A program made the translations under genes and the position numbers. The notes beneath the pieces were generated by a model. That model had not been told where the DNA came from and ran no database searches. It was given only the letters and a program-made list of their open reading frames with translations. 37,288 nucleotides of DNA from Bacteroidaceae bacterium (GTDB lineage: Bacteria > Bacteroidota > Bacteroidia > Bacteroidales > Bacteroidaceae): positions 1-37,288 of the forward strand of contig JAFUVM010000044.1 in the NCBI GenBank assembly GCA_017483665.1, written 5' to 3'. Within the stretch, counting starts at the first letter, position 1. Each line of letters opens with the position of its first letter. Positions 13,786 through 37,288 of the stretch are shown here, piece by piece.

Positions 13786-13906
13786 TTCGGTAGGATTTGC
13801 AATCCGACCGTAGGGATTATAGGGATTTATAATCCCGCAACTATTCTCATGTCGGCATTACAAATGCCTATATTCACTTCTGGTGGATTGCAAATCCGCC
13901 AGAACA
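13786..13906. repeat. Four-hairpin palindromic repeat element, copy A
   Basis: Four hairpins, each with a 3-base loop, follow one another: 13788-13810, 13822-13836, 13854-13868 and 13880-13902. The cores are GGATT/AATCC or GCATT/AATGC. This copy differs from the other three in the outer stems (CGGT/ACCG instead of CGTG/CACG; CTGGTGG/CCGCCAG instead of CTGTCGG/CCGACAG), largely keeping the pairing. It lies between the convergent kinase and fimbrillin-like genes. Confidence 0.85.
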
Positions 13907-13925
13907 GGGGGCACACTGAGGCAGT

Positions 13926-15287
13926 TCATAGTTCACTATTCACAATAACAACTGAACTTTGTTCTTTATCGATAACGACAGCTTCAAAGGTAATAGGAAA
14001 CATTTCCTCCGGATTCATACTTGTCCCACCCCAAGATAAATCATATATCTTGAACAAATAAGTGTATGAATAGCCAGGCTGCCAGGAAGTATATTTCGCT
14101 GGAACCTGAGTTTTTGCTCCTTTTATGTTGATGATTTCACCACTTCCATCTGTAGCGACAAGCTTATAATCTACCTTGATGCTCAACGTTGCACCAGCCT
14201 CATTGGGATTGACACATGTAAAGTAATTGTCGTAGAGCTTTCCTGCGAATGATGCAGAACTTGAGGAACGTCCGAGATAGTATTGACCATTCGGTTCGTA
14301 GTATTCTTTAGTTGAATAGTTCAATGCTCCAAACGCTTTATTAGTCTCAACAGTGCCATTCGTGTCAGCTACAAATGCTATGTGAGGCTTATTGTAGTCT
14401 GCTGAACCTTGGTTGATGGCGCCTGTGGTAGGATAATATACAATGTATTTGCCATAGTCGCTGAATATCTCAGTATTGTCTGTATAGAGCCTTGCTTCGC
14501 CATCGGCAACAGTTTCATCATTTTCATAGAACTTCAAGTCCCTGACACTATAGCCGGGAATAGTTTCATAGAAGGCTAAGCGAACCTTAGGAGAAAGAGG
14601 ATAGAAACTCAACTCTACTTCCTTGCCGTAGTCGTTACCCTTATAGACTGTTTTCGCATCAGCAACATAGGCCTTGGCAATATCTGCTGTCTTACCCTTT
14701 ATGAAGAATGCTCCGTCTGTTACCTTGCCCTTGTCGTCAACAACGCCATTCATTTTGCTTGCATCGATGGAGGACACGAATACTTGACCATCGCTCAGCC
14801 CGGCTGCTTCGTTATACACAGCCATAGCATCGCCCGTGGAGTAGGCAATGAAGTTATACTTCTCTGAACTGTAGTCCCAATACTTGATGGGCTGACTCCA
14901 ATCGTATATGTTGGTCAGTCCCACATAATCCCAAATGCCTAGCATACCATCAACATACTTCACATAGTAGTCATCGAAAACAACTGACTGCTTGCTGTCT
15001 GCATACTTCACGCCTTCCACAACGAAGTGACTGTTCAGCTTGCCTTGCATCCCAGCACCAGCACTACGAGTTTGAGGCGTGTCATCATGTACAGTAAAGA
15101 CAATCGTACTGGAGTCAGTAGGATTGATTGGTGTTCCTTCACGCGGAAACATCTCCTTGATGTTTTCAATATCAAATTCCTTCTCGCTGTCATCATTGAA
15201 GCGAATGACCCATTTGCTTTGTGCGAAGGAAGTGGCACTTCCAAGCAACATAATTGAGAGCAATATGGAAAACTTAACCTTCTTCAT
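13926..15287 (-). CDS. Fimbrillin-like secreted protein
   Basis: A 453-residue exported protein. The start at 15287 gives a clean Sec signal peptide (MKKVKFSILLSIMLLGSATSFAQ, residues 1-23, cleaved after SFA or AQ). The frame continues upstream through sequence that belongs to the ORF6N gene. A short beta-rich N-terminal segment (KWVIRFNDDSEKEFDIENIK) resembles the FDVGDI-type repeat of many Bacteroidetes surface proteins. The C-terminal part, especially WQPGYSYTYLFKIYDLSWGG, resembles the fimbrillin/Mfa-like family. Unlike classical fimbrillins it has no lipobox cysteine, so the lipoprotein route of pilus assembly may not apply. It lies 40 bases downstream of the ORF6N gene on the same strand. 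Family call is moderate. Confidence 0.6.
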   Translation of the reverse strand: MKKVKFSILLSIMLLGSATSFAQSKWVIRFNDDSEKEFDIENIKEMFPREGTPINPTDSSTIVFTVHDDTPQTRSAGAGMQGKLNSHFVVEGVKYADSKQSVVFDDYYVKYVDGMLGIWDYVGLTNIYDWSQPIKYWDYSSEKYNFIAYSTGDAMAVYNEAAGLSDGQVFVSSIDASKMNGVVDDKGKVTDGAFFIKGKTADIAKAYVADAKTVYKGNDYGKEVELSFYPLSPKVRLAFYETIPGYSVRDLKFYENDETVADGEARLYTDNTEIFSDYGKYIVYYPTTGAINQGSADYNKPHIAFVADTNGTVETNKAFGALNYSTKEYYEPNGQYYLGRSSSSASFAGKLYDNYFTCVNPNEAGATLSIKVDYKLVATDGSGEIINIKGAKTQVPAKYTSWQPGYSYTYLFKIYDLSWGGTSMNPEEMFPITFEAVVIDKEQSSVVIVNSEL

Positions 15288-15327
15288 AATAATACTTGTA
15301 TTTGCCTGGTTATATATTCTTCTTTTA

Positions 15328-15897
15328 TCAATTGTCAGAAGTATCGAAGCCGATGGGGCGATGCGGTTTCTTGGGTGGTGCTTGCAATGCTGCCAAAGAC
15401 TGGTTGATAAGTTCCAACTGCATGCGTGTATCTTCGTTGATGTTGTTCTGGTCGGCAAGTATGTCCTCTATGTCGAGCTTCAGCTCTTCAAAGTCCTTGC
15501 GCAACTGGGCCACATCTGCAACTGTATTAGACAATACGCCCACCATACTGCGCATTGCAACAAAGGCACGGGTTATCTTAATACTCATATCTATGGCAAC
15601 ATCACTTCTTAACACACTTGCAAGCATGAGTGCACCATGTTCTGTGAAGGCAAAAGGCAAGGCTGATTTAGGGCGCTTTAATCGTGATGTCATCACAAAT
15701 TGTGATGAGATAAATGACCATTCTTCTGCTGTGAGTTGGAACATAAAGTCAGCTGGGAAACGCTCTGCATTGCGTTTTACTGCCTGATTCAGTACACGTG
15801 TTTCCACACTATACATCATAGCCAAGTCGAAGTCGAGCATTACGCGCTGACCCCGTATCTCGTATATCTTATTTTGTATGGTTTGAACTTCGTTCAT
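15328..15897 (-). CDS. ORF6N-domain protein
   Basis: A 189-residue protein whose N-terminal 110 residues match the ORF6N domain, found in phage antirepressor-like and genomic-island proteins (IYEIRGQRVMLDFDLAMMY, then LNQAVKRNAERFPADFMFQL and LPFAFTEHGALMLASVL). The C-terminal half is a coiled-coil-like acidic stretch (about 115-165) ending in a proline-rich tail. Such proteins are thought to bind DNA, but the role outside phages is not known. No phage or integrase gene lies nearby. It has its own strong promoter (15954-15924). Confidence 0.85.
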   Translation of the reverse strand: MNEVQTIQNKIYEIRGQRVMLDFDLAMMYSVETRVLNQAVKRNAERFPADFMFQLTAEEWSFISSQFVMTSRLKRPKSALPFAFTEHGALMLASVLRSDVAIDMSIKITRAFVAMRSMVGVLSNTVADVAQLRKDFEELKLDIEDILADQNNINEDTRMQLELINQSLAALQAPPKKPHRPIGFDTSDN

Positions 15898-15923
15898 ACG
15901 ACTGCATTCTGTCTTTCGCGCTA

Positions 15924-15954
15924 CAAAGTTAGTTATTTATTCCTTTCAATCAAA
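15924..15954 (-). promoter_or_regulatory. Promoter of the ORF6N gene
   Basis: On the minus strand TTTG (15954-15951), 19 bases, then TAACTTTG (15931-15924): a full match to the Bacteroidetes consensus, 27 bases before the start codon. The fimbrillin-like gene downstream has no evident promoter in its 40-base gap and may depend on this one. Confidence 0.75.
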
Positions 15955-15973
15955 TAAAAGGAAAGAAAAGAGT

Positions 15974-18223
15974 TTATATCACCATTTCCAGCATGCTGAG
16001 GTCGGCTTCTTCGCCTACGACCCAGACGATGTCGCCTTGGCGAAACTGACGTTTGGCTTGGGTGATGCCGAGATGACCGTGCTCGTCTTCCACTCCCACC
16101 ACCATGCAATTGTAGCGACGGCGGAAGTCGGTGTCCTGCAAAGTGTGCCCTATGAGCGGACTGCTCTCGGTGAGCGACACGGAGATGATTGACATGCTGT
16201 GCTTGTCCTCCTGTGCGGCTTCCTGCGGTTTGTACAGCTCTTCCGTGCTACGCGCCCGCAGCGATTCGATGGTCTCCGCGTCGCCTACCACCTCCAGCAC
16301 GTCGCCGGGATAGATACGGTTGCTGCCGCCCGGGATGTTGATGCGGTGCTCACCACGTATGATGGCGGCAATGTGTACCTGCGACGTACGGCCGAAGTTG
16401 AGCTGAGCCAACGAGTGTCCGCCCCAACGCGAGTGCATCGGCACTTTCACGTGCGCTATCTGCAGGTCCTTGCCGCGCAGACGCCGTCCGTAGCCGGTTG
16501 CCCCCTGCTGTTCGCGCAGCCGCAGGTTCTGCTTGAAGGTACGCTCTATGCGCATGCTCACGAACTGGACCGTGCGGTTCATCACAATCAGCATCAGCAC
16601 GCCGACGCTTATCAGTACGTTCCACACCCACCAGAGCGGCGAAACAAACTCCACCACATAATATATAATAGCTAAGCCGATGAGTAGTTTAACCGTGATG
16701 ATGATGCCCACCAAGGCCCTGCTGCCAGCATTCGACGAGCGCAGGTACTGGGCCTCCTTGCTGTTGTTCTTGCGTATGACGATAGGGCGGATGAAGGGCG
16801 AGAGGCACAGCAGCGTGACGAGGCCGCAAAGTGCCGGACCATAGGTTTCGCCCAGGATGTGATGGAAGAGGGGCAGCAGTGTGGCAAAGCTGAACATGGC
16901 GAGTGCTATGCAGATGGTCAGGAAGGCAGCCGTCTGGAAGAGCACTTCGACGACAAAGCGCCGCCGCACAAGTACGGACAGGCGTACCGCTTCTCGCTTA
17001 CGGCGACGGGCTGCAATATCCTCATGCAGGCGGAACAGATTGCCGGCATGCGAACTGAGCGTCTGATCCACACGGTCGCACACCGCCGGAGCCATGCGTA
17101 TGACGTAGGGCGTAAAGAACGTCGTGACGATGCTCACCGCTACGACAACGGGATAAAGGAAGGCGCTTGTGACGCCCAACTCCTGCCCCAAAGCGGCGAT
17201 GATGAAGGCAAATTCGCCTATCTGCACCATGGAGAAACCGCTGCGGATAGCGGTGTGGACGTCGCCACTCGCTACGAAGAAACTCAACGAACCGAAGAAC
17301 ATCTGCCCCAGCACAACGGCGAGTGTCAGCACGAGAATGGGCAGCCAGTACTCGACGAGCACGGAGGGTTCCACCATCATGCCTACCGATACAAAGAAAA
17401 CCGCACCGAAAAGGTCACGCAGCGAACCGACGACCTTCTCTATGTTCTCTGCCTCGATGGTCTCCGCCAAGATGCTTCCCATCATGAACGCACCGAAGGC
17501 CGGGCTGTAGCCGACGCTCGAAGCCACTACCGCCAGCAGGAAACACAGGCCGACGGACACGACGAGCAGGGTCTCGCTGTTGATGTAGCGGCCGGCCTTC
17601 CTGAGCAGGAGCGGCACAAGGTAAATGCCGACCAGGAACCAAAGCATCAGGAAGAAACCGAGCTCCATGAGGCTTTTCATCAGTTCCAGCCCTTCGAAGC
17701 GGCGGCTCACGGCCATGGCGCTGAGCACCACCATGAGCAGGATGCCCAGTATGTCTTCGAGGATAAGCACGGAGATGACGCCCGAGGCAAAGCGTTTGCT
17801 GCGCAGTCCGAGCTCGTCGAAAGCTTTGTAGATGATGGTCGTCGAGCTCATACTGAGCATACCGCCCAGGAAGATGCGGTCCATGCTGCTCCAGCCGAAC
17901 AGGAAAGCCACCATGCTGCCAACGCCTATCATGCAGCCCATCACCATCAGCGCCGTTAGGATTGGCTTCATGCCCATGCGCACAATCTTCTTGAACGAGA
18001 ACTCAAGTCCCAAAGTGAACATGAGGAAGATGACGCCAATCTGACTCCATTCCTCTATGCCCTCCATGCTGCTCACCGACGGCGTGTACGTCATGTGCGG
18101 CCCCGCCAGGAAGCCTGCCACGATGTAGCCCAGCACGAGCGGCTGCTTGAGTCGCTTGAAGATGATGGTGACGATGCTCGCTACGGTCAGAATGTACGCG
18201 AGGTCGGTTATTAAGGAAGACAC
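15974..18223 (-). CDS. CPA2-family cation:proton antiporter with two RCK_C domains
   Basis: A 749-residue membrane protein. Residues 1-390 hold about twelve helices of the Na+/H+ exchanger (KefB/RosB-like) domain, with signature stretches FLAGPHMTY, FTLGLEFSFKK and GYSPAFGAFMMGSILAETIE. Further helices follow (about 430-560). The tail carries two RCK_C-type regulatory domains, at about 600-670 (GGHSLAQLNF, IYPGDVLEVVGD) and 680-749 (LIGHTLQDTDFRR, GDIVWVVGEE). It should exchange K+ or Na+ for protons under ligand control. The start is a GTG at 18223; no ATG fits upstream before a stop. It is 48 bases downstream of nadA. Codon use returns to GC-rich here. Confidence 0.9.
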   Translation of the reverse strand: MSSLITDLAYILTVASIVTIIFKRLKQPLVLGYIVAGFLAGPHMTYTPSVSSMEGIEEWSQIGVIFLMFTLGLEFSFKKIVRMGMKPILTALMVMGCMIGVGSMVAFLFGWSSMDRIFLGGMLSMSSTTIIYKAFDELGLRSKRFASGVISVLILEDILGILLMVVLSAMAVSRRFEGLELMKSLMELGFFLMLWFLVGIYLVPLLLRKAGRYINSETLLVVSVGLCFLLAVVASSVGYSPAFGAFMMGSILAETIEAENIEKVVGSLRDLFGAVFFVSVGMMVEPSVLVEYWLPILVLTLAVVLGQMFFGSLSFFVASGDVHTAIRSGFSMVQIGEFAFIIAALGQELGVTSAFLYPVVVAVSIVTTFFTPYVIRMAPAVCDRVDQTLSSHAGNLFRLHEDIAARRRKREAVRLSVLVRRRFVVEVLFQTAAFLTICIALAMFSFATLLPLFHHILGETYGPALCGLVTLLCLSPFIRPIVIRKNNSKEAQYLRSSNAGSRALVGIIITVKLLIGLAIIYYVVEFVSPLWWVWNVLISVGVLMLIVMNRTVQFVSMRIERTFKQNLRLREQQGATGYGRRLRGKDLQIAHVKVPMHSRWGGHSLAQLNFGRTSQVHIAAIIRGEHRINIPGGSNRIYPGDVLEVVGDAETIESLRARSTEELYKPQEAAQEDKHSMSIISVSLTESSPLIGHTLQDTDFRRRYNCMVVGVEDEHGHLGITQAKRQFRQGDIVWVVGEEADLSMLEMVI

Positions 18224-18271
18224 TTTCTAATAATTAAAAATGAAAAATTAAAAATTAAAAATTTAATGATT
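18224..18271. repeat. AT-rich AATTAAAAAT repeat between nadA and antiporter gene
   Basis: The spacer repeats AATTAAAAATGAAAAATTAAAA, with no GC hairpin. It lacks a terminator, so read-through from nadA into the antiporter gene is likely. Confidence 0.5.
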
Positions 18272-19255
18272 TTACTGTGCTGAAAGGTCGAGCATGCGGT
18301 TGATGCACTTTACGGCCTTTTCTGCAACCTCGGGTGCGACCTCCACCTCCGGCCATTCGTACTTCAGACAGTTGTAGAGTTTCCGGAGCGTAATGAGCTT
18401 CATGTAGTTGCACTCGTTGCAGGCACAGGTGCTGTCGTCGGGCGGAGCGGGCAGGAAGACCTTCTGCGGACAGGCCTGCTGCATCTTGTGCAGGATGCCG
18501 CTCTCCGTGGCTACGATGTATTCCTTGGCGTCGTCCTCCTGACTGAACTTGAGCAAAGCTGCCGTACTGCCTACCTTGTCAGCCACCTTCACGACAGGTC
18601 CCTTGCACTCGGGGTGCACCAGTATCTTGGCTTCGGGGTGCTGTGCCTTCAGCTCCAGAATGCGCTCCAGGCTGAACTTCTCGTGTACGTGGCAGGCTCC
18701 GTCCCAGAGCACCATCTGACGACCCGTGAGGGAATTGATGTAGCTGCCCAGGTTGCGGTCCGGACCGAAGATGATCTTCTCGTCCTTGGGCAGGGAGTTT
18801 ACTATCTTGAGGGCGTTGCCGCTGGTGACCACGATGTCCGTCAGGGCCTTGATGGCAGCGGTGGTGTTGACGTAGCTGATGACGGTGTGGCCGAGATGAG
18901 CCTTGACGAACTCACCGAACTCCTGCGCCGGACAGCTCTCGGCCAACGAGCAGGTGGCGTTCAGGTCGGGCACCAGTACCTTCTTGTCCGGGCAGAGAAT
19001 CTTGTTCGTCTCGCCCATGAAGTGCACGCCGCACATCACGATGATGTAGGCATCTGTCTTTGCTGCCTGTTGCGCCAAGGCCAGACTGTCGCCCACGAAG
19101 TCGGCTATGTCCTGCACCTCGGACTCCGTATAGTAGTGCGCCATGATGACGGCGTTCTTCTCCTGCGCCATGCGGCGAATCTCCTTCTTGATGTCCGTAC
19201 CGGCAGGAACGGGTTCGTCCACGTAGCCTGCCTCTTTCCACTTGTTGTCAACCAT
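18272..19255 (-). CDS. nadA: Quinolinate synthase A
   Basis: A 327-residue iron-sulfur enzyme. It condenses iminoaspartate (made by NadB) with dihydroxyacetone phosphate to give quinolinate for NAD synthesis. Visible family features are NAVIMAHYYTESEVQDIADFVGDS near residue 35, the first cluster cysteine in the VMCGVHFMGETNKIL region, HPECKGPV around residue 215, and the C-terminal CACNECNYMKL with the last cluster ligand. Length is typical of NadA. The partner gene nadB is in this window at 30766 on the other strand. The upstream region has a -7 box TAACTTTG at 19435-19428, implying a leader of about 165 bases. Confidence 0.96.
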   Translation of the reverse strand: MVDNKWKEAGYVDEPVPAGTDIKKEIRRMAQEKNAVIMAHYYTESEVQDIADFVGDSLALAQQAAKTDAYIIVMCGVHFMGETNKILCPDKKVLVPDLNATCSLAESCPAQEFGEFVKAHLGHTVISYVNTTAAIKALTDIVVTSGNALKIVNSLPKDEKIIFGPDRNLGSYINSLTGRQMVLWDGACHVHEKFSLERILELKAQHPEAKILVHPECKGPVVKVADKVGSTAALLKFSQEDDAKEYIVATESGILHKMQQACPQKVFLPAPPDDSTCACNECNYMKLITLRKLYNCLKYEWPEVEVAPEVAEKAVKCINRMLDLSAQ

Positions 19256-19427
19256 TGTTATATCATTATTATATTATAGTTTTATTTTTTATAAAGAATA
19301 AATATGATGATGATGATGTACGGTGGATAAGTTGATAACTCACCCAGCGGCACCCTCATCCGTGTTGGAGCATTGCATTCACAGCCTTTCCTTATGCTTG
19401 GAAACGTAGGCAGTTAAATACGCACTG

Positions 19428-19435
19428 CAAAGTTA
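19428..19435 (-). promoter_or_regulatory. -7 box of nadA
   Basis: TAACTTTG on the minus strand. The distance to the nadA start (about 170 bases) is long for this genome and leaves room for leader regulation. Confidence 0.5.
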
Positions 19436-19596
19436 ATACTTTTCCTTCACATAGCGTATGGATAACTTTCTTTTTTCGGGTTGAAACAGGATTTATAACA
19501 TTTTGCTTTTGTTAATAACGCCTATCGGGGGTTCGATTTGTACACATTAGTGTGAATAAGTGTGGAGTTATTCACCGACTTGTGAACATAAATTGT

Positions 19597-19604
19597 TAAC
19601 TTTG
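19597..19604 (+). promoter_or_regulatory. -7 box of the SpoU methyltransferase gene
   Basis: TAACTTTG, 20 bases before the start codon. An inverted repeat at 19552-19575 lies just upstream and may be an operator. Confidence 0.55.
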
Positions 19605-19624
19605 CACAGAGAAACAACCGATAC

Positions 19625-20149
19625 ATGAGAAAGCTGAAGGTAACGGAAATGGGAAGGCTGAGCGTAGAGGAATACCGTGCAGCCGAGAAACAACCGCTGG
19701 TAGTGGTGCTCGACTGTGTGCGTAGCCTCTACAACGTTGGCAGTGTGTTGCGGACGAGCGATGCCTTTCGTCTGAGCGGCGTGTGTCTGTGCGGCATCAC
19801 GGCACAGCCGCCTCACCCCGAGATACACAAGACGGCTCTCGGAGCGGAGGACAGTGTGCCCTGGCGCTACTTCCGACGGACGGAGGAGGCCGTGGAGTGT
19901 CTCAGGGAAATGGGCTATACGTTGCTGGCTGTGGAGCAGTGCGAAGGGAGCACCATGCTGCAGGACTTTCGTCCGGAGAAGGGCAGGAAGTATGCCGTCG
20001 TGCTTGGCAACGAGGTGAAAGGTGTGCAGCAACAGGTAGTGGACATGTGCGACGGTTGCCTGGAGATACCGCAGTACGGCACCAAGCACAGCATGAACGT
20101 CAGCGTCACCGCCGGCATCGTCCTCTGGCACTTCACAGAGAAGTGGTAG
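19625..20149 (+). CDS. SpoU/TrmH-family RNA 2'-O-methyltransferase
   Basis: A 174-residue SPOUT enzyme, expected to transfer methyl from S-adenosylmethionine to a ribose 2'-OH of tRNA or rRNA. The three family motifs are present: motif 1 NVGSVLRTSDAF (about 38-49), motif 2 VVLGNEVKGV (about 128-137) and motif 3 IPQYGTKHSMNVSVTAGI (about 149-166), which forms the trefoil knot and cofactor site. It lacks the N-terminal RNA-binding extension of TrmH or RlmB, so the target RNA cannot be named. It is a single gene with its own promoter, divergent from nadA, and followed by the hairpin repeats at 20.2-20.4 kb. Confidence 0.92.
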   Translation: MRKLKVTEMGRLSVEEYRAAEKQPLVVVLDCVRSLYNVGSVLRTSDAFRLSGVCLCGITAQPPHPEIHKTALGAEDSVPWRYFRRTEEAVECLREMGYTLLAVEQCEGSTMLQDFRPEKGRKYAVVLGNEVKGVQQQVVDMCDGCLEIPQYGTKHSMNVSVTAGIVLWHFTEKW

Positions 20150-20197
20150 CAGCGGCGGTAAATATGAATTGTATTTGTTCGTGCGTATTTTTCCACT

Positions 20198-20325
20198 TGT
20201 TCGTGCGGATTTGCAATCCGCACGTGAGTAATATAGGGATTTGTAATCCCGCAACTCTTTTTTTTCGCATTAAAAATGCTTATATTCCATGCTGTCGGAT
20301 TTCAAATCCGACAGAACGTTACCAT
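20198..20325. repeat. Four-hairpin palindromic repeat element, copy B
   Basis: Hairpins at 20202-20224, 20236-20250, 20267-20279 and 20292-20314, each with a 3-base loop, then ACGTTACCAT leading straight into the 22-bp array. A partial extra copy of the leading TTCGTGCG motif lies at 20178-20185. It lies in the gap between the convergent methyltransferase and coiled-coil genes. Confidence 0.9.
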
Positions 20326-20433
20326 AAGCCCCTCGCGCTTATTTAGGAAGCCCCTCGCGCTTATTTATGAAGCGCCTCGTGCTTATTTAGGAAGCGCCTC
20401 GTGCTTATTTAGGAAGCGCCTCGTGCTTATTTG
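20326..20433. repeat. 22-bp tandem hairpin repeat array, five units
   Basis: Units start at 20326, 20348, 20370, 20392 and 20414. The first two read AAGCCCCTCGCGCTT, the last three AAGCGCCTCGTGCTT, followed by ATTTAGG or variants. The array directly adjoins four-hairpin element B, the same arrangement as at 29.6-29.9 kb. Confidence 0.92.
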
Positions 20434-20434
20434 A

Positions 20435-20473
20435 GAAAGGCACAGCGCTTTCGAATCAGCCGCTGTGCCTTTC
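20435..20473. terminator. Intrinsic terminator of the coiled-coil gene
   Basis: GAAAGGCACAGCG (20435-20447) pairs perfectly with CGCTGTGCCTTTC (20461-20473) around a 13-base loop. It lies 13 bases beyond the minus-strand stop codon at 20486. On the plus strand the stem ends in TTTCTT, so it may serve both directions. Confidence 0.65.
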
Positions 20474-20485
20474 TTCAGGATTGCC

Positions 20486-21070
20486 TTAGTTTCTTACGCC
20501 TTCTACGAGTATTCGCTTGGCAGCATCCTTGGCTTCCTTGGCCTGATCCACTGCTTCGCTCGCTACGTTTGTCTCGTTCGCCAGGTTCTCCAGGTTCTTT
20601 TGCGTGTTCTCGATGTCCTTGTTGATGTTCTCCAGGTTCTGCTGAGCCTTCTGCAGCTTCATCTGCATCTTCGAGATGTTCTGCTCGGCCTTGGTCGACT
20701 TGGACTGCAGCTTAGCCAGTTTGTTGTTTGTCTTCGTCTGCTTGCTCTGCAGCTTGGTGCCCTTCTTCTGGGCTTGGTTGTAGTTTTTGTCGGCCTTCTT
20801 CTCTTGCGAAGCTGCACGCTTGGCAACGCTGAGGTTGTGCTTGGCTTTCGAGAGCTCGGCCTTCTTCTGGCTGATTTCGCCCTTGATGCTCTTGTCGCCG
20901 CTCGTCTTGGCGTTCAGTTCCATCGTCTTGATTTCCGTCTTCAGACGGTCGACCTCCATGCTGAACTCGTTCTTCCAGTCCTCGCAGGACCTGCCGTCGT
21001 ACATCGACTGTGCCATTGCCGGCATCGAGATGGCAAGAGCCACCATTGCTAAAATTCTTCTGATTTTCAT
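20486..21070 (-). CDS. Periplasmic coiled-coil protein of unknown function
   Basis: A 194-residue protein. Residues 1-21 form a Sec signal peptide (MKIRRILAMVALAISMPAMA, cleaved near MAQ). A short segment with one cysteine follows (YDGRSCEDWKNEF), then an almost continuous Lys/Gln/Asn/Glu-rich coiled coil from about residue 35 to 180. Heptad-like repeats such as KLQSKSTKAEQNISKMQ and NLENINKDIENTQ suggest a long helical rod or oligomer in the periplasm. No enzyme motif is seen and I do not recognise a family. It is followed by a terminator and stands alone. Confidence 0.8.
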   Translation of the reverse strand: MKIRRILAMVALAISMPAMAQSMYDGRSCEDWKNEFSMEVDRLKTEIKTMELNAKTSGDKSIKGEISQKKAELSKAKHNLSVAKRAASQEKKADKNYNQAQKKGTKLQSKQTKTNNKLAKLQSKSTKAEQNISKMQMKLQKAQQNLENINKDIENTQKNLENLANETNVASEAVDQAKEAKDAAKRILVEGVRN

Positions 21071-21523
21071 TTTACTTGAAGTTTTAATTAGTAAGGTTTA
21101 TAATTAGAATTTATTTTAATATGTATTGCTTTATTCACTTCGTCGCCTTCAATTCGTTTAATTCGTGTAATTAGTGGTTAAAAATGTCGCCTTCGATTCG
21201 TTTAATTAGTGCAATTAGTTGTTAAAAAACATCATGAGTATCCGTCTAATCCGTGTAGTTCGTGGTTAAAAATGTCGCCTTCAATTCGTTTAATTCGTGC
21301 AATTCGTTGTTAAAAATGCCGCCTTCAATTCGTGTAATTCGTGTAATTCGTGGTTAAAAATATCGCCCTCAATTCGTTTAATTCGTTCAATTCGTTGTTT
21401 ATAATATAGCCCTCAATTTGTTTAATTCGTGCAATTAGTTGTTAAAAAACATAATGTGTATATGTTCAACCCGTGTAATCCGTTGTTTATAATCATACAG
21501 TCCTCGCGCACATTATATATTAT
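21071..21523. repeat. Degenerate 44-bp TTCGTTTAATTCG tandem array
   Basis: About eight units of 44 bases run from 21148 to roughly 21500. A typical unit starts TTCAATTCGTTTAATTCG and ends GTTGTTAAAAATGCCGCC. Inside each unit the motif TTCGTNNAA repeats every 9 bases. Some units are shortened or carry AACATCATGAGTA-like endings. The gap between the coiled-coil start and the dacB end holds no gene. Shorter runs of the same family lie at 1620-1700 and 34040-34158. Confidence 0.85.
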
Positions 21524-29500: not shown

Positions 29501-29613
29501 TTGCACTCCGCCCGAAGAAACACCCAAATGACTTTCACCACGAATTGCACGTACCGCCTAAGCACCGCCGTTCGTGCGGATTTGACCTCCGGCTTTTCCG
29601 CCTGAGCACCGCC
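29501..29613. repeat. Degenerate partial copy of the four-hairpin element's 5' end
   Basis: GCACCGCCGTTCGTGCGGATTT occurs at about 29564-29585 and again at 29606-29627, where element C begins. The first copy lacks its hairpin's right arm (followed by GACCTCCGG), so it looks like an abortive duplication. No gene is seen. Confidence 0.6.
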
Positions 29614-29739
29614 GTTCGTGCGGATTTGCAATCCGCACGTAGGGAATATAGGGATTTGTAATCCCGCAATTCTTTCTTTCGCATTACAAATGCTTATATT
29701 CAATGCTGTCGGATTGCAAATCCGACAGAACATTACCGT
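29614..29739. repeat. Four-hairpin palindromic repeat element, copy C
   Basis: Hairpins at 29617-29639, 29651-29665, 29681-29693 and 29706-29728, all with 3-base loops, then AACATTACCGT into the 22-bp array. It lies between the convergent carbohydrate-binding and rubrerythrin genes. Confidence 0.92.
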
Positions 29740-29881
29740 AAGCCACACGCTCTTCTCTCCGAAGCGCCTCGCGCTTATTCCCGAAGCGCCTCGTGCTTAT
29801 TTCGGAAGCGCCTCGCGCTTATTGTCGAAGCGCCCCGTGCTTATTTCGGAAGCGCCTGGCGGTTATTCTGGAAGCGCGGGG
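29740..29881. repeat. 22-bp tandem hairpin repeat array, six units plus partial
   Basis: Units start at 29740 (degenerate), 29762, 29784, 29806, 29828, 29850 and 29872 (partial), exactly 22 bases apart. Loop-side changes (CTC, CCC, CTG) and stem changes (GCGCTT, GTGCTT, GCGGTT) occur. The array ends 7 bases before the rubrerythrin stop codon. Confidence 0.92.
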
Positions 29882-30430: not shown

Positions 30431-30465
30431 AATCGTTTTGGGTTAAGGGTGAATGATATCTGGCG

Positions 30466-30496
30466 CAAAGATACTGTTTTTTAGTGATACCCGCAA
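30466..30496 (-). promoter_or_regulatory. Promoter of rubrerythrin
   Basis: On the minus strand TTGC (30496-30493), 19 bases, then TATCTTTG (30473-30466), 35 bases before the start codon. Confidence 0.65.
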
Positions 30497-30630
30497 GCGC
30501 CGGGCGAATTTTTTGCATTGCGTGCGGAGAGTGACTGTCCTTCGCAAAAGGAGGAAAACCGTCGGTTTCGGCAGGCTCCGGCCCGCCGAATCGCGAGTTA
30601 AGGCCGTGTCGCGATGCCACTTTTCCCCGG

Positions 30631-30665
30631 AAAAGCAAAAGAAATTGCGGTTTTCTTTTGCTTTT
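30631..30665. promoter_or_regulatory. Inverted repeat overlapping the nadB -33 box
   Basis: AAAAGCAAAAGAAA (30631-30644) and its exact reverse complement (30652-30665) are separated by 7 bases. The right arm includes the TTTG of the nadB -33 element, a position suited to a repressor. The 10-mer TTTTGCTTTT also occurs upstream of nadA at 19501-19510. Confidence 0.5.
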
Positions 30666-30687
30666 AGCGCACTTAATCGTAACTTTG
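30657..30687 (+). promoter_or_regulatory. Promoter of nadB
   Basis: TTTG (30657-30660), 19 bases, then TAACTTTG (30680-30687), giving a leader of about 70 bases. Confidence 0.7.
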
Positions 30688-30765
30688 CCTCGATATTACG
30701 TTAAAAAGAAGCGCTGGAGGTGCGTTCCGGCTCCCAGTGCCTGAACAAAACAGAAGTCATTGACG

Positions 30766-32355
30766 ATGATAAAAAAATGCGAATTCCTGATTATAGGTAG
30801 CGGCGTGGCCGGAATGAGCTACGCGCTGAAAGTGGCAAACGCAGGCAAGGGCAAGGTGACGCTCATCTGCAAGACAACCCTCGAAGAGGCGAACACGGCG
30901 AAGGCCCAGGGCGGCATCGCCTCGGTGACGAACCTGCTGGTGGACAACTTCGAGAAACACATCGAGGACACGATGATAGCGGGCGACTACATCAGCGACC
31001 CCGCGGCAGTGGAACAAGTGGTACGCAATGCGCCGCAGGGCATCAAGGACCTGCTGCGCTGGGGCGTCAACTTCGACAAGAAAGACGACGGCGAGTTCGA
31101 CCTGCACCGCGAGGGCGGACACTCCGAGTTCCGCATCCTGCACCATGCCGACGATACCGGTGCCGAGATACAGCGCGGGCTCATGGAGGCCGTTCGCAGC
31201 AATCCGAACATCGAAATCCTGGAGAATCACTTCGCTGTCGAAATTATCACCCAGCACCACCTCGGCATCCGTGTCACCCGCCGCACGCCCGACATCGAGT
31301 GCTACGGCGCTTATGTCCTCAACCCAGACACGGGCAAGGTGGACACCTACCTGAGCAAAGTCACCCTCATGGCAACGGGCGGAACGGGCGCCATCTACGC
31401 CACGACGTCGAATCCGAACATCGCGACGGGCGACGGCATAGCGATGGTCTACCGTGCCAAAGGCAAGGTGAAGGACATGGAGTTCGTGCAGTTCCACCCC
31501 ACTGTGCTCTACAACCCGCAGGAGACCCATCCGGCCTACCTCATTACCGAAGCCATGCGCGGCTACGGCGGCATCCTCCGTCTGCCCAACGGCGAGGAGT
31601 TCATGCAGAAGTACGACGAGCGTCTGTCACTCGCTCCGCGCGACATCGTGGCTCGCGCCATCGACCGCGAGATGAAGATTCACGGTCTGGACCACGTCTG
31701 CCTCGACGTCACGCACAAGGACCCCGAGGAGACCAAGCACCACTTCCCTAACATCTACGCCAAGTGTCTGAGCATCGGCATCGACATCACCAAGCAGTAC
31801 ATCCCCGTAGCGCCCAGCGCCCACTACATGTGCGGCGGCATCAAGGTGGACCTCGACGGGCAGAGCAGCATCCGCCGGCTCTATGCCGTGGGCGAATGCT
31901 CGTGCACCGGACTGCACGGCGGCAACCGCCTGGCCAGCAACTCGCTCATCGAGGCCGTGGTCTACGCCGACGCCGCCGCACGCCACTCGCTGGAGGTCGT
32001 GGACCAGTACGACTTCAACGAGCGCGTGCCGGAGTGGAACGACGAGGGCACGATGACGAACGAGGAGAAGGTGCTCATCGCCCAGGACGTGAAAGAGGTG
32101 AACCAGATCATGAGCACCTACGTGGGCATCGTGCGCAGCGACCTCCGCCTGCACCGCGCCTGGGAGCGCCTCGACCTCCTCTACGAAGAGACGGAGCACC
32201 TCTTCAAGCGCGTCAAGCCCACCAAGGACATCTGCGAGCTCCGCAACATGATCAACGTGGGCTACCTCATCACCCGCCAGGCCCTGGAGCGCAAGGAAAG
32301 CCGCGGCCTGCACTACACCATCGACTACGCGAAACACGCTTTAGATAATTCTTAA
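30766..32355 (+). CDS. nadB: L-aspartate oxidase
   Basis: A flavoprotein of about 529 residues that oxidises L-aspartate to iminoaspartate, the first step of de novo NAD synthesis; under anaerobic conditions fumarate can accept the electrons. The N-terminal FAD site is LIIGSGVAGMSYALK; NTAKAQGGIASV follows. Central features are MATGGTGAIYATTSNP, EFVQFHPTVLY, PRDIVARAID, APSAHYMCGGIKVD and GECSCTGLHGGNRLASNSL, as in the succinate dehydrogenase/NadB group. The helical C-terminal domain is present. The start ATG at 30766 is preferred over a TTG six bases upstream. The stop codon lies within the left arm of an AT-rich inverted repeat. NadA is encoded at 18272-19255. Confidence 0.95.
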   Translation: MIKKCEFLIIGSGVAGMSYALKVANAGKGKVTLICKTTLEEANTAKAQGGIASVTNLLVDNFEKHIEDTMIAGDYISDPAAVEQVVRNAPQGIKDLLRWGVNFDKKDDGEFDLHREGGHSEFRILHHADDTGAEIQRGLMEAVRSNPNIEILENHFAVEIITQHHLGIRVTRRTPDIECYGAYVLNPDTGKVDTYLSKVTLMATGGTGAIYATTSNPNIATGDGIAMVYRAKGKVKDMEFVQFHPTVLYNPQETHPAYLITEAMRGYGGILRLPNGEEFMQKYDERLSLAPRDIVARAIDREMKIHGLDHVCLDVTHKDPEETKHHFPNIYAKCLSIGIDITKQYIPVAPSAHYMCGGIKVDLDGQSSIRRLYAVGECSCTGLHGGNRLASNSLIEAVVYADAAARHSLEVVDQYDFNERVPEWNDEGTMTNEEKVLIAQDVKEVNQIMSTYVGIVRSDLRLHRAWERLDLLYEETEHLFKRVKPTKDICELRNMINVGYLITRQALERKESRGLHYTIDYAKHALDNS

Positions 32356-32474
32356 TTCATAATTCATAATTCATAATTTGGCTACGCCCGAAGGCTTGGC
32401 GAAAGAAATAGTTCATAATTAGGCTACGCCCGAAGGCTTGGCGAAGGAAATAATTATGAATTATGAATTAAGAA
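32349..32474. repeat. Inverted repeat enclosing two 31-bp direct repeats
   Basis: The arms 32349-32371 and 32452-32474 are perfect 23-bp reverse complements built of AATTCATAATTCATAATT. Between them GGCTACGCCCGAAGGCTTGG plus eleven bases occurs at 32380-32410 and 32422-32452, with one mismatch. The nadB stop codon is inside the left arm. It resembles a small MITE-like or recombination-made element. Confidence 0.8.
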
Positions 32475-32494
32475 TTATGAATTAAAAAAAAGTT

Positions 32495-33967
32495 ATGAAG
32501 AAAGGCATACTCGGCATACTCGTCATCATGGAGAGCTTCTTCCTGCTGCTCTCCATGCTCATCGCCATCCTGAACGGCGAGGACGGTTGGCTGTGCTTCC
32601 TGGCTACGGCGCTGGGTGCGACGGGCATCGGTTCGCTGTGCCTTTTCCTGAGCCGCAGGGGTGAATGCCGACGGATGAACCGTGCCGACACCTTCCTCAT
32701 TGTGGCGCTCTCCTGGATTGTCTTCTCGCTGATTGGCATGGTGCCCTACCTGTGGCTGACGGAGATGGACGTCTCCAGCGCGTTCTTCGAGACAATGAGC
32801 GGCTTCACCACGACCGGTGCCACCTGCATCCGCGAGATAGACAACCTGCCGCGCTGCCTGCTCTTCTGGCGTGCCATCACGCAGTGGATAGGCGGCCTGG
32901 GCATCGTGGTCTTCTCGTTTGCCCTCATCCCTGTCTACGAGATGAAGAACAGCAACCTCTACTCTGCCGAGGTGACCGGCCTGGGGCTGGACAAGCTGAG
33001 GCCCAAGATTGGCGCCACAGCCCGCCGCGTCCTGCTCATCTACATCGTGCTGACCAGTGTCTGCGCCCTGCTCTATTGGGCCGGACCGATGTCGCTCTAC
33101 GATGCCTGCTGCCATGCCTTTTCCACCATCGCCACGGGCGGCTTCAGCACCCACAGCGACAGCATTGCCTACTTCCACAGCAGCTATATAGAATATGTGG
33201 CGAGCCTGTTCATGATAGTGAGCAGCATCAATTTCTCGCTCTACTACTACATGAGCATCCGTCGCAGCCGTGTCTTGTTCCAGAACGAGGAGGTGCGAGT
33301 CTTCCTCGGCTACCTGGCCGTGGCCGTGGTCGGCTTTGTGTTGCTCTTCTACTTCGAGCCCATTCCCGACGACGCCACCGCCGCCTTGCCCCGAGGCTTC
33401 GAGGAGACCTTCCGATCGGCCCTCTTCCATGTCAGCAGCGTGGCGACGAGCACAGGCTTCTCCGCACAGAAGTTCGACTATGTGGCGTGGGGCGCTTCGT
33501 TCTGGATGCCCACGGTGGTCATCATGGCTATCGGTGCCTGTGCGGGTAGCACGGCGGGCGGCATCAAGATGATCCGCATCATCATCTGTGCCAAGAGCGT
33601 CTTCAACGAGCTCATCCTCATGCTCCATCCCAGGGCCGTCATCGGCGTGCGTGTGGGCAGACAAATCGTGCCGGAGCACAAGGTCCGCCAGGCTCTCTCG
33701 TTCATCTTCATCTACATCCTGCTCGTTGTCATCGCCATGACGTGCTATTCCCTGCTGGGTGCCGACGTCGACACAGCCCTGGGCAGCAGCATCAGCATGC
33801 TGAGCAACGTCGGTCCGGCCACCGGAGCCACCGGACCAGCCAGCACCTTCGCCGGAGTCCCCGCCCCGGGCAAGTGGCTCATGAGTGCGTATATGCTCAT
33901 CGGACGTCTGGAGATCTTCACCGTACTGTTCCTCCTCATGCCCAACTACTGGAAGGACAGGAAGTAA
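32495..33967 (+). CDS. trkH: Potassium uptake protein TrkH
   Basis: A 490-residue inner-membrane K+ transporter of the Trk/Ktr family. Four selectivity-filter loops are visible: SGFTTTGATC (about 105), STIATGGFSTH (about 210), SSVATSTGFSAQ (about 310) and LSNVGPATGATG (about 430). About ten to twelve membrane helices surround them. GGLGIVVFSF and GACAGSTAGGIKMIRI are family stretches. The regulatory partner TrkA is not in the window. The gene follows nadB after the AT-rich repeat and may share its transcript or start independently; no strong -7 box was seen in the gap. Possible link to K+ homeostasis with the CPA2 antiporter is only functional. Confidence 0.94.
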   Translation: MKKGILGILVIMESFFLLLSMLIAILNGEDGWLCFLATALGATGIGSLCLFLSRRGECRRMNRADTFLIVALSWIVFSLIGMVPYLWLTEMDVSSAFFETMSGFTTTGATCIREIDNLPRCLLFWRAITQWIGGLGIVVFSFALIPVYEMKNSNLYSAEVTGLGLDKLRPKIGATARRVLLIYIVLTSVCALLYWAGPMSLYDACCHAFSTIATGGFSTHSDSIAYFHSSYIEYVASLFMIVSSINFSLYYYMSIRRSRVLFQNEEVRVFLGYLAVAVVGFVLLFYFEPIPDDATAALPRGFEETFRSALFHVSSVATSTGFSAQKFDYVAWGASFWMPTVVIMAIGACAGSTAGGIKMIRIIICAKSVFNELILMLHPRAVIGVRVGRQIVPEHKVRQALSFIFIYILLVVIAMTCYSLLGADVDTALGSSISMLSNVGPATGATGPASTFAGVPAPGKWLMSAYMLIGRLEIFTVLFLLMPNYWKDRK

Positions 33968-34184
33968 CGCCCCGCGTACACCGCCAGGCCACCGCACACG
34001 ATTCCCACGGGAATTGTTTATTTTCACAACGGATTACACGGATTGAACGGATTAATTCTTCTCCGTCGCTCAGCGAATAGTTAATTCGTGTAATTCGTGC
34101 AATTCGTGGTTGAAATAATAAACTCGCGTTCGTGTAATCCGTGCAATTCGTGGTGAAGTATATAGGTGCATGGGTAAATGACGG
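33968..34184. other. Gap after trkH with TTCGTG repeats
   Basis: ATTCCC/GGGAAT at 34001-34014 is a weak hairpin followed by a T-rich run, a possible trkH terminator. Bases 34040-34158 carry TTCGTGTAATTCGTGCAATTC-type repeats of the 44-bp family. No gene is seen. Confidence 0.45.
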
Positions 34185-34221
34185 AAGCGCCCGGTTCTTG
34201 TTGTCGAAGAGCCGGGCGCTT
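34185..34221. terminator. 15-bp hairpin related to the 22-bp repeat
   Basis: AAGCGCCCGGTTCTT (34185-34199) pairs with 34207-34221 (one G-U pair) around 7 bases. The outer AAGCGC/GCGCTT equals the stem of the 22-bp repeat. It lies 20 bases beyond the minus-strand stop at 34242, between convergent genes, and is a likely terminator, though without a T-tract. Confidence 0.6.
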
Positions 34222-34241
34222 GTGGAGGGGGAGCCTGGGGA

Positions 34242-36971
34242 TTATTTCCTCAGTTTCTTGCCGTCGACGATGTAGATGCCGCTAGGCAGGGTAGTGATGC
34301 CGTCGGCGGAGTTGGAGACGACGGAGCCGCTGATGTTGTAGACTCTGCCTGTGGTCGTGGCGCGGTCGCGGGCGTCGATGCTGCCGATGCCTGTGCCTTC
34401 CTCAAAACCGATGCGGAGCTCGCCGAGGATGGGCATGTGGTCGGAGGTGACTTTGTCGTTGATGACCTCGTAGCTCAGCTTTTCTACGCCGCCTATCTCG
34501 TCGTAGCTGATGATGTTGTCGATGACGTATGTGCCGTCGCTCCACGTGGGAGTGGTGAGGTCGGAGTGGAAGGTGAAGCCGTTCTCCTGCAGGTACTTGG
34601 TCAGTGCGCCGCGTGCTCCTTCCATTTCGCCGTCGGTGCCGTCGTCGTTGAAGTCGCCGGCTATGATGAGGGGCTTGCCTGTTGCTACCCAACGCTCTGC
34701 TTCAGCCTTGATGATAGGACCTGTGCCGCGGCGGGCGCTGGCGGAGAGTCCGACGTGGACGCTTGCGAAGACATAGTTGTCGAACTCGGCAATCAGCATG
34801 CGACGCGGTTCGAAGTCGGATGCCAGAGCCACGACTCTGACGGAGAGCGGCAGCTGCTTCGAGAGGATGCCGATGCCGTAGCCTGTGAGTGCGCTGCAGA
34901 AGATGCCGTACATGCCTGTGGCCTCGGCCAGTTCCTTCACCTGGTACTTGTTGTCGGAGCGCGATGAGAAGACGCTGTCCACCTCCTGCAGGGCCACCAC
35001 ATCGGCCTGCTGTGCGGCGATGACACTGGCGGTGCGTGGCAGGTTGAGGCCGTCGTGGTTGCCGGCGCAATGCTTCACGTTGTAGCTCAGCACGCGCAGG
35101 TCTTGCTTCTTGTACTTGTCGTAGACGGGCTCGGTGTATTCGCCTTTTGCTGCTGCATCGAGGTCGGCTGCCAGACGCTCGAGGATGATGTCGTAGGCAC
35201 CGTTCGTGACGGCTTCGTCAGCTTTCGCCCAAACCTTGCGCAGGGCAGCGAGCTGCTGCTGGCTGAGGTTGCTGTGGTCCGTGAAGTCGGGGTTCCCCAC
35301 CTCGTCCATCTTCTTGCAGAGTGCGAGTCGGAGCTGCATGGCGGGACTTTCCAGCGAGGCTGCATCCACCTTCTGCGTCTTCCAGCATTCCACCACGGCT
35401 GCGTCCGTTGTGCCGATATGGGTGTAGGGAGTTCCGCTGACGGGAGCAAACATCTCGCTGTCGACGCTGTAGATGGAGAACTGTTTGTTGTTGGTCAGCA
35501 CGCGGAAGAACGTGAGCGGTTCCTCTTCCGTGTCGGACATGAGGACCAGTCCGTCTTCGGTCATCGTGCCGGTGACGTACCTGCCCGACGCATAGTTGCA
35601 AATTCGGTACTGCCCTTTCTCCCTGTCGACGGCCTCGATGCGGAAGATGCTGCGCGGGTCGCCGCTGTGCTGTGTGTCGAGGATGAGGCTTGCGCCTTGC
35701 TCGTAGGCCTGTGCGTCGGCCTTCTTGTCGCTCCAGCACTTCTTCTCCGTGCCATAGGCGTAGAGGATGTTGTAGTAGCCGTTGGCCAGGTTGAAGTAGT
35801 CCGACTGTTCCTCGCTGCCCGGGTTGACCTTGAGCAGCTTCCATCGTCCGGGATAGCCGTTGGTCGCTACGTCGTCGGAGTAGTCGTCGTCGCCGACGTA
35901 CTGCTTGGCGAGGCTGTTGTTGGGACGGTCGCTGCGCAGGTAGCCCTGGACGTGCAGTGAGTGTTCCGACTCGCTGTTGGTCATGTAGAAGCGTCCGGCG
36001 CCGTCGGTGAGGTCGGAGAGCGTGTAGCCCACGGGTGTGTCGGAGAAGACGACGTCGGCCTCGGCAGGGCTGGTGTTCATGTTGCCCAGGTACCTGTTGT
36101 TCTCCTTGTTGAGGAAGGCCCACTGGTCCCCGTCGGCTTTCTTTGCGGTCCACACGAAGCCGTCGGACTCTCTGTCGAGGTCGCCCCAATAGACGTACTG
36201 GCTGCCCCAGTTGACCTTGTAGCCTTCCTGTGCGGTGGACATGGCCTTGGAGAGTCCGGAGCTGTTGCCTGCGAACTTCGTGCGGTCGCTGATGATGTAG
36301 TACTGCTCGCCGTCCTTTATCTGGCTCACGTCGGTGATCCATACGTCGACGTTGCCCGTCTCGGCCTCGTAGATGTGCCAACGGGCAGGATAGCCGTTGT
36401 CGGCGACGTCACTCACGTAGGTTGTGAAGCCGGTGTCCTGCTTGCCCAGGCTGTTGTTGGGTCGGTCGCTGCGCAGGAATCCCTGGACGTGTGGCGAACG
36501 TGCGTCTTCGCTGCTGATCATGTAGAAGCGTCCTTCGCCGTCCTCGAGGTCGGTCAGGGTGTAGCCGACCGGTGTCTCGGAGAAGGTGACGTCGTTGTCG
36601 GAGCCCGACTCGCGCCCCAGGTAGAGCCCGTTGGACTTGTTCTTGAATGCCCACTGGCCTTCGTCGGCCTTCTCGCAGACCCACTGGAAGGCTTCCTCCT
36701 CAGCGTCGAAGTCGCCCCAGTAGACGTACTCCGTGCCCCATTTTATCTTGTAGCTGTCCAGCTGCGGGGACATGCCTTTGGGTTTGCCGGTAGTGTTTCC
36801 GGCGAACTTCGTGCGGTCGCTGATGATGAAATAGGCTTTTCCTTCCTTCAGGTCCCCGGGGTAGAGCACGCGCTTGTACCCTTCGATAAGGTCATTTGCG
36901 CTGGCGCTTGTGCCGCCCAGCAACAGCAGCGCGGCCACGAAGAGCTGCAATAGTGAGTACAACTTTCTCAT
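34242..36971 (-). CDS. Secreted multi-domain endonuclease/exonuclease/phosphatase protein
   Basis: A 909-residue exported protein. Signal peptide residues 1-25 (ending SASA). Residues about 27-205 and 212-375 are two copies of one beta-rich module; both contain ISDRTKFAGN, QYVYWGD or EYVYWGD, DTPVGYTLSDL-type and LRSDRPNNSL stretches. A third beta-rich module resembling ricin-type lectins follows (about 385-530). The catalytic domain is at about 622-855: LRVLSYNVKHC, ADVVALQEVD, IIAGDFNDDG and SDHMPILGEL are the metal and catalytic motifs of the EEP superfamily (DNase I-like, sphingomyelinase and inositol-phosphatase relatives). The substrate is unknown. The tail (VYNISGSVV then LPSGIYIVDGKKLRK) resembles C-terminal sorting tails of Prevotella surface proteins. 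The -7 box is TAACTTTG at 37037-37030. Confidence 0.85.
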   Translation of the reverse strand: MRKLYSLLQLFVAALLLLGGTSASANDLIEGYKRVLYPGDLKEGKAYFIISDRTKFAGNTTGKPKGMSPQLDSYKIKWGTEYVYWGDFDAEEEAFQWVCEKADEGQWAFKNKSNGLYLGRESGSDNDVTFSETPVGYTLTDLEDGEGRFYMISSEDARSPHVQGFLRSDRPNNSLGKQDTGFTTYVSDVADNGYPARWHIYEAETGNVDVWITDVSQIKDGEQYYIISDRTKFAGNSSGLSKAMSTAQEGYKVNWGSQYVYWGDLDRESDGFVWTAKKADGDQWAFLNKENNRYLGNMNTSPAEADVVFSDTPVGYTLSDLTDGAGRFYMTNSESEHSLHVQGYLRSDRPNNSLAKQYVGDDDYSDDVATNGYPGRWKLLKVNPGSEEQSDYFNLANGYYNILYAYGTEKKCWSDKKADAQAYEQGASLILDTQHSGDPRSIFRIEAVDREKGQYRICNYASGRYVTGTMTEDGLVLMSDTEEEPLTFFRVLTNNKQFSIYSVDSEMFAPVSGTPYTHIGTTDAAVVECWKTQKVDAASLESPAMQLRLALCKKMDEVGNPDFTDHSNLSQQQLAALRKVWAKADEAVTNGAYDIILERLAADLDAAAKGEYTEPVYDKYKKQDLRVLSYNVKHCAGNHDGLNLPRTASVIAAQQADVVALQEVDSVFSSRSDNKYQVKELAEATGMYGIFCSALTGYGIGILSKQLPLSVRVVALASDFEPRRMLIAEFDNYVFASVHVGLSASARRGTGPIIKAEAERWVATGKPLIIAGDFNDDGTDGEMEGARGALTKYLQENGFTFHSDLTTPTWSDGTYVIDNIISYDEIGGVEKLSYEVINDKVTSDHMPILGELRIGFEEGTGIGSIDARDRATTTGRVYNISGSVVSNSADGITTLPSGIYIVDGKKLRK

Positions 36972-37165
36972 GATAACGAATGTTTAAAGGTTAATAATAA
37001 TGTTGGTTAGTTTAGTGTTTATTCTCACGCAAAGTTACAACTTATTGTTAACATAACAAGCAAAAACGGTAAAAACTTCGGACAAAATGGATTTTGCGGA
37101 CGGGGATTATTTATGTCCCGCCGTTGAGGGCGCAGGCAAAGACCATTTCGTGGTCGCCGGCACCC
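36972..37165. other. Upstream region of the EEP protein gene
   Basis: It holds the -7 box at 37030-37037 and an AT-rich stretch (37038-37080). No gene is supported between there and the repeat element that runs to the window edge. Confidence 0.45.
37030..37037 (-). promoter_or_regulatory. -7 box of the EEP protein gene
   Basis: TAACTTTG on the minus strand, about 60 bases before the start codon at 36971. The TTGC at 37063-37060 is a possible -33 element but 22 bases away. Confidence 0.5.
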
Positions 37166-37288
37166 GTTCGTGCGGATTTGAAATCCGCACGTGGGGAATA
37201 TAGGGATTTGCAATCCCGGAATTCTGTTTTTCGCATTGCAAATGCTTATATTCCATGCTGTCGGATTTCAAATCCGACAGAACGGCGA
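37166..37288. repeat. Four-hairpin palindromic repeat element, copy D
   Basis: Hairpins at 37169-37191, 37203-37217, 37233-37245 and 37258-37280; the element reaches the window edge after GACAGAACGGCGA. Whether a 22-bp array follows cannot be seen. Unlike copies A-C, its left neighbour is the 5' end of a gene. Confidence 0.9.

Follow-up and report, generated by a model that had tools for sequence, protein, structure and literature searches.

In the portions of the literature available for this comparison, canonical REPINs or BIMEs consist of two inverted REPs, and the RAYT gene is flanked by inverted REPs (PMC2817692; PMC8266576; PMC3116915). It was reported that TnpA-REP cleaves single-stranded REPs close to the structure, at CT and, in the case of one group 3 enzyme, also at CA; a change of the GTAG tag shifted the cut site for this enzyme, and the same approach failed for two others, and the spreading of REPs was described as still unresolved (PMC8266576). 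RAYTs of subclass 2.6 are found mostly in Bacteroidetes and carry the motifs NH[LIV]H, WQ and YIH[QN]NP, with about 82 amino acids from HuH to Y (PMC6006769). Their flanks were described as 'atypical secondary structures' that are weaker, are without GT[AG]G and have copies elsewhere in the genome (PMC6006769).

The window, i.e., the whole stretch of 37,288 nucleotides of Bacteroidaceae DNA that was analyzed, holds four copies of a four-hairpin repeat, with GTT marking the left end and AAC the right end of each:

13785-13905, + strand: copy A, full element of 121 nt; hairpins at 13788-13810, 13822-13836, 13854-13868 and 13880-13902; stem subfamily CGGT../CTGG.., like the RAYT flanks
20199-20317, + strand: copy B, full element of 119 nt; hairpins at 20202-20224, 20236-20250, 20267-20279 and 20292-20314; subfamily CGTG../CTGT..
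29614-29731, + strand: copy C, full element of 118 nt; hairpins at 29617-29639, 29651-29665, 29681-29693 and 29706-29728; subfamily CGTG../CTGT..
37166-37283, + strand: copy D, full element of 118 nt; hairpins at 37169-37191, 37203-37217, 37233-37245 and 37258-37280; subfamily CGTG../CTGT..

All four copies named in the original prediction exist, and the right ends that it gave for copies B, C and D take in flanking bases. Copy D is separated from the contig end by only 5 bases. The plan of four hairpins with 3-nt loops was recovered, with stems of 10, 6, 5 and 10 bp, the third stem having 6 bp in copy A, and the element is, as had been proposed, an inverted pair of two-hairpin units. Seen inward from either end, each half-unit starts with YGTT, followed by two stems that are each closed by a 3-nt loop. 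The first stem has 10 bp and the second 5-6 bp, and the linker between them measures about 10 nt and is close to NNNGAATATA. The inner hairpin of the window copies reads GGGATT-AATCCC in the left half and GCATT-AATGC in the right half. Outer and inner apices have ATT-N3-AAT in common, mostly as ATTTGCAAT. The window contains nine perfect hairpins (at least 8 bp, 3-4-nt loop), six of which represent the outer stems of copies B, C and D. Copy A is missing from these because each of its two outer stems carries one mismatch.

Folded as single-stranded DNA, the copies have z values of -7.28 (A), -7.13 (B), -8.17 (C) and -8.97 (D), and for each of them 0/200 shuffles fold as well as the real sequence. 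The plain four-hairpin fold is the minimum in copy B only. In the minimum folds of copies C and D the outer two hairpins are kept and the halves pair together in the middle of the element, and copy A shows end-to-end pairing. Covariation was analyzed in 66 distinct half-units, of which the window's own genome supplied 50 and six related genomes 16. In 116 cells both partners of a pair are changed, and these cells are not independent events because left and right halves constitute two lineages; the number of 116 was reached by 0/500 shuffles. The claimed compensatory stem changes are therefore real, and the paired arms are conserved. Pairing is found in 95.7% of the cells compared with 25-41% if the partners are slid by 1-3 columns, and the outer helix is 99.1% paired with 5/10 pairs changed on both sides. 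By two weaker measures, six pairs show a double change (reached by 3/500 shuffles) and there are 12 further pair types (reached by 135/500 shuffles).

The genome to which the window belongs (G000) comprises 3.06 Mb in 150 contigs and is 78% complete. With copy C as query, 102 overlapping matches were obtained in it on both strands, and in its fetched loci a half-unit pattern matched 65 times, including a few inner or overlapping hairpins. The genome has at least 17 clean full elements (19 rows minus two 97-bp rows), so that many copies exist beyond the four of the window, as the proposed genome-wide search had anticipated. In these 17 elements, as in 52 distinct elements from loci of the family, the repeated unit is composed of two inverted REP units, i.e., it has the form of a REPIN. 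Tandem sets occur on contigs C105, C100 and C75, and copies at different sites of one genome reach a similarity of 92-93% over the greater part of their length. The commonest stem type of the genome is CGTG/CTGT and not the CTGG/CGGT type found beside its RAYT. Contigs C100, C116, C105 and C95 and the window itself (37166-37288) end inside an element or no more than about 200 bases away from one; copy number is therefore probably undercounted, and the copies may break assemblies. A mini-element of outer arms only (GTT..GGATTTG joined to CAAATCC..AAC) adjoins a full copy at about C27:9966-9998. It resembles the 'double foot' REP, which was suggested to arise by central deletion in the part of PMC6006769 considered here.

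A search for a Y1 HUH transposase gene of the TnpA-REP type, which had been advised, was positive. The own genome encodes a single Y1 transposase above the Pfam cut-off (C3:33148-33681), with one weak match below the cut-off. This gene is identified as RAYT by the NCBIfam model NF047646 (96.1 bits, cut-off 80); it scores 30.2 bits with PF01797 (cut-off 23) and 25.8 bits with the IS200 model, which is under the cut-off of 55. By sequence match the protein is weakly similar to the solved TnpA-REP 4er8 (E 0.00049). Its motifs are NHLH, WQ and YIHQNP, and H55 and Y140 are 85 positions apart. N54, H55, H57, W119, Y140, H142, N144 and P145 are invariant in 33 aligned homologues, and H55, H57, Y140, N144 and P145 are also invariant in 17 sequences that include the one of the own genome. 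Judged by these motifs, the spacing and its homologues in Bacteroidota, the predicted protein fits subclass 2.6 (Bertels group 5) as far as this subclass is characterized in the material compared.

The gene is bracketed by the same halves that make up the repeats, one of right type and one of left type, with whole elements on either side. The stems beside it are of the CTGG/CGGT type of copy A, and copies B-D form the second subfamily, CGTG/CTGT. In the genus, one cognate RAYT per genome flanked by the same REPs, the arrangement that marks REPINs, was found in 9/9 RAYT-carrying genomes, with half-units within about 250 bp of the gene and on both sides in the eight that have both sides on the contig. 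The arrangement is less tidy in G036, where a whole element stands on the downstream side, and in G090, where the distances of the halves from the gene are about 140 and 240 bp. The RAYT locus occupies at least two, probably three positions in the genus, shared by G000/G027/G102/G128, by G013/G042/G054 and by G036/G090; between G036 and G090 the flanks match at only 65-82%. The locus is unoccupied in the relatives G080, G090, G093 and G124, with junctions too diverged to read a duplication; in G090 the unoccupied locus is that of the first group. The sequence AAGGACGATGTGCTTCC comes after the RAYT cassette in G027 and on both sides of RAYT in G000 (L053 near 1394 and 2381; C3), the latter being a local duplication around the gene.

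Elements and RAYT genes also go together at the level of genomes. RAYT was found in 9/139 genomes of the genus, one gene each (E 1e-10). The half-unit covariance model R1, built from the own genome and six RAYT-carrying relatives, matches 27/139 genomes, namely 9/9 with and 18/130 without RAYT. The RAYT genomes have from 7 to at least 39 matches each, and the RAYT-negative genomes with matches mostly 1-3, the highest being G016 with 10 and G080 with 6. At least seven matches were counted in 9/9 RAYT genomes compared to 1/130 others (Fisher 2.4e-13). In a family sample of 399 genomes RAYT was detected in 13 (E 1e-15) from 7/30 genera, G304 with only a 57-residue piece, and any half-unit match was present in 13/13 RAYT genomes compared to 52/386 others (Fisher 1.9e-11). 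The association leans towards RAYT genomes because the model was built on RAYT carriers and RAYT-flanking halves count as matches, and the counts per genome are lower bounds, with 39 candidates scored in the genus search and 13 in the family search. Ten RAYT-negative family genomes have at least 12 half-unit matches with at most 13 scored. NF047646 gave nothing above its cut-off in 28 RAYT-negative genomes (18 with at least five element matches, 10 with none or one); 14/28 have a weaker match, the best being that of G120 (76.2 bits), a genome without any match to the element. The element-rich RAYT-negative genomes therefore suggest that elements outlast or outrun the gene or that other Y1 enzymes serve them.

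Hairpins of the same kind flank RAYT genes in the wider phylum. From a scan of named genomes the best 80 of at least 537 confirmed RAYT loci were taken; these span Prevotellaceae and Bacteroidaceae MAGs from the ruminant gut and loci of Bacteroides xylanisolvens XB1A, Phocaeicola (P. coprophilus among them), Paludibacter, Pontibacter, Rufibacter and Larkinella. Flanks of 180 bp were available at 72/80 loci. Perfect hairpins of at least 8 bp occur upstream in 45/72, downstream in 55/72 and on both sides in 38/72 compared to 3/130 control windows, so that 34/72 loci do not have them on both sides. The stems measure 8-14 bp, most often 10. Within 300 bp, 231 GATT-N3-AATC anchors were found in 60/80 loci, compared with 15 in 41,400 control bases; this apex is demanded by the anchor itself, and it was also seen in most loci by the hairpin scan, which makes no such demand. 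Out of 178 distinct anchors, 99-116 are paired at each of positions 3-6 beyond the anchor (shuffled means 47-60), and all four pair types are present at each of positions 2-6. From position 7 pairing is about the shuffled mean or below, so that it runs 6 bp past the anchor. This drop after 10 bp throughout the phylum would fit a protein that measures stem length. A second, inner hairpin is present on the gene side of 78/101 flanks and on the far side of 27/101, a control that is raised by neighboring elements. Hairpin arms are more alike where the RAYTs are more alike (r 0.307, 0/2000 permutations), as determined with a crude arm alignment in the 51/80 usable loci. In some distant RAYT loci the tag is GCT.

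The sites of insertion were analyzed in 52 distinct full elements from fetched loci of the window's family, which are not all independent, as relatives share sites. A target-site duplication of 2-9 nt is present at the ends of 0/52, and if the ends are shifted by up to 4 nt, of at most 1/52. Likewise, no target duplication is known for the IS200/IS605 family. The length is 116-122 nt in 49/52. A pyrimidine precedes GTT at 51/52 left ends, at 49/52 right ends and in 162/174 GTT half-units. With a loose pattern that does not require GTT, takes in some inner hairpins and leaves out half-units with A or G after the stem, copy A among them, GTT precedes 156/195 hairpins. The canonical GT[AG]G tag is absent, and the canonical single-hairpin REP with GTAG was not found, since each half has GTT and two hairpins.

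Copies A and C are present at the same sites in the nearest relative, G102, in which the site of copy B is a run of Ns. Five of 15 other joined-flank sites were searched in G102: two (C11, C27) are without the element, a third (C105) has one copy compared to three in the own genome, the search for C141 matched only 22-bp arrays, and that for C117 ran into a contig end. Because the empty sites belong to another species, at about 74-90% identity, exact pre-insertion junctions are not readable. A preference for convergent genes, suggested by 3/3 window copies with genes on both sides, was dropped, as 15/43 copies and 28/81 background gaps are convergent (Fisher 1.0); divergent gaps account for 4/43 and 19/81 (Fisher 0.087). 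These rough ORF-based calls cover the 43/52 classifiable copies; seven others lie at contig edges and two inside called ORFs.

Several smaller repeats are found close to the elements. Two are palindromic tandem arrays with a 22-bp unit close to GAAGCGCCTCGCGCTTATTTCG, which occurs at many loci of G000 and G102:

20326-20432, + strand: 22-bp palindromic tandem array of 4.9 copies, on the right-half side of copy B
29759-29877, + strand: 22-bp palindromic tandem array of 5.4 copies, on the right-half side of copy C

Such an array lies within 200 bp of 18/52 full elements, on the right-half side in 17/18. Arrays also occur without an element, at window positions 1095-1192 and at C27 in G102; from the latter case it follows that arrays may be preferred insertion places or that array and element may have spread together. 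A sequence of about 45 nt with two small hairpins was found at four places inside element hairpins, directly after GGATT or GCATT (L013, L030 and L038, on C116, C76 and C115, with a similar remnant at window positions 29578-29610). It may be a second small repeat that targets element loops. Furthermore, the window contains seven copies of a 44-bp tandem unit between two called genes (21142-21448) and 9/18-bp tandem units of CTAGA type at 2268-2373, inside a called gene, and at 2785-2869.

The reading as a REPIN-type non-autonomous element, offered in the original prediction, is supported by the RAYT gene, by its bracketing with the same halves and by the many further copies. We consider it highly likely that these repeats of about 118 bp are non-autonomous mobile elements similar to REPINs and belong with the single RAYT elsewhere in the genome, and they were very probably moved by it as single-stranded DNA. 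The outer hairpins would fold when the element is single-stranded, e.g., in the lagging-strand template, and a RAYT dimer would bind the conserved apex, close to GGATT-TGC-AATCC, and read the GTT tag as a guide. The RAYT tyrosine would then cut next to the Y|GTT boundary, and the excised strand would be joined elsewhere, mostly at extragenic places, without target-site duplication; such activity may be current. By analogy with the canonical systems, GTT and the conserved apex would form the recognition signal, and the bases of the outer stem could vary freely provided that pairing is kept. More tentatively, RAYT and the double-hairpin end on each of its sides might together constitute a mobile IS-like unit in Bacteroidota, of which the four-hairpin repeats would be internal-deletion derivatives. 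If true, this unit would link IS200/IS605 transposons to domesticated REPtrons, and the two-hairpin end on each side would be a recognition grammar.

Inverted-repeat ends and a short, multicopy element would also be expected of a MITE that depends on an insertion sequence of DDE type, with GTTC...GAAC as terminal inverted repeats, a reading to which we give a very slight chance, because duplications are absent from the ends of all 52 elements, with at most one at shifted ends, and the gene that was found flanked by one half of either type encodes a Y1 RAYT. That the repeat encodes short conserved proteins has a practically negligible probability. Frames across the repeat do give RICNP/LQIRQN-like peptides, which agrees with the earlier remark that similar sequences are known as short spurious proteins, but covariation keeps the pairs while both bases change, and the spacing varies among copies.

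Stable stems and an extragenic position are also compatible with an RNA-level role, in which bidirectional terminators or mRNA-stabilizing hairpins keep the repeats and mobility is only history. Each of the three window copies that have called genes on either side is located between convergent ones, and many REPs are plausibly transcribed according to the sections of PMC3733652 considered. This role is nevertheless improbable, except perhaps as a secondary one: the gene context of the 43 classifiable copies is not clearly unlike background gaps, the unit is self-inverted, has stems that follow the relatedness of the RAYTs and goes with the presence of RAYT, and an Rfam search of the window gave 0 matches at the gathering score. 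Alternatively, elements once mobilized by RAYT could now be relics that spread only by tandem duplication and recombination, similar to BIME arrays. Tandem sets with shared spacers (three copies at C105 compared to one in G102; C100; C75) and genomes with elements in which no RAYT was detected speak for this, and we regard it as rather unlikely, given that the catalytic motifs of RAYT are intact and conserved, that copies sit at unrelated sites with different flanks and that the closely similar copies mentioned above lie at different sites of one genome.

As REPIN-like elements with a cognate RAYT, the repeats can be compared with four known systems, in each case within the parts of the cited papers considered. 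They share with canonical REPINs and BIMEs the inverted REP pair, the RAYT with inverted REP flanks, the clusters and the mostly extragenic position; a canonical REP, in contrast, has only one hairpin and carries GTAG as its 5' tag, while here each half has two hairpins and GTT. The Y1 HUH enzyme and hairpins near the ends are in common with IS200/IS605, from which the system differs by a RAYT that scores well under the IS200 cut-off (25.8 bits compared to 55) and by one gene per genome with many non-autonomous copies. TIRtrons or TIRYTs also have RAYT-like genes with long inverted repeats, some doubly palindromic and some with repeat families; compared by description, they differ in their TIR motif GGGGWSAS, and Bacteroidetes are named in these sections only for CGTC repeats (PMC3733652).

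With a defined end structure, a sharply bounded stem, a tag and a cognate enzyme, binding, cleavage and mobility become open to direct tests, and a model is available for the annotation of repeats that could otherwise be read as short proteins. In a search that covered titles, the beginnings of abstracts, parts of main texts and a minority of subscription papers, no published description of the double-hairpin element was found. The system is most similar to subclass 2.6, with Bacteroidetes as hosts, the same motifs, flanking structures copied elsewhere and no GT[AG]G, a Bacteroidota RAYT branch that had been left 'atypical' in the text of PMC6006769. Unlike those 'atypical' flanks, the structures described here share a single plan of two hairpins per half, the YGTT tag, an outer stem of typically 10 bp and a common apex. 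As far as seen in that text, the present analysis extends what was reported in PMC6006769: each half has an explicit plan of two hairpins, its tag comes with a preceding pyrimidine, pairing is limited to 10 bp, the elements have the full form of REPINs and are associated with RAYT at the level of genomes, and target duplications are absent.
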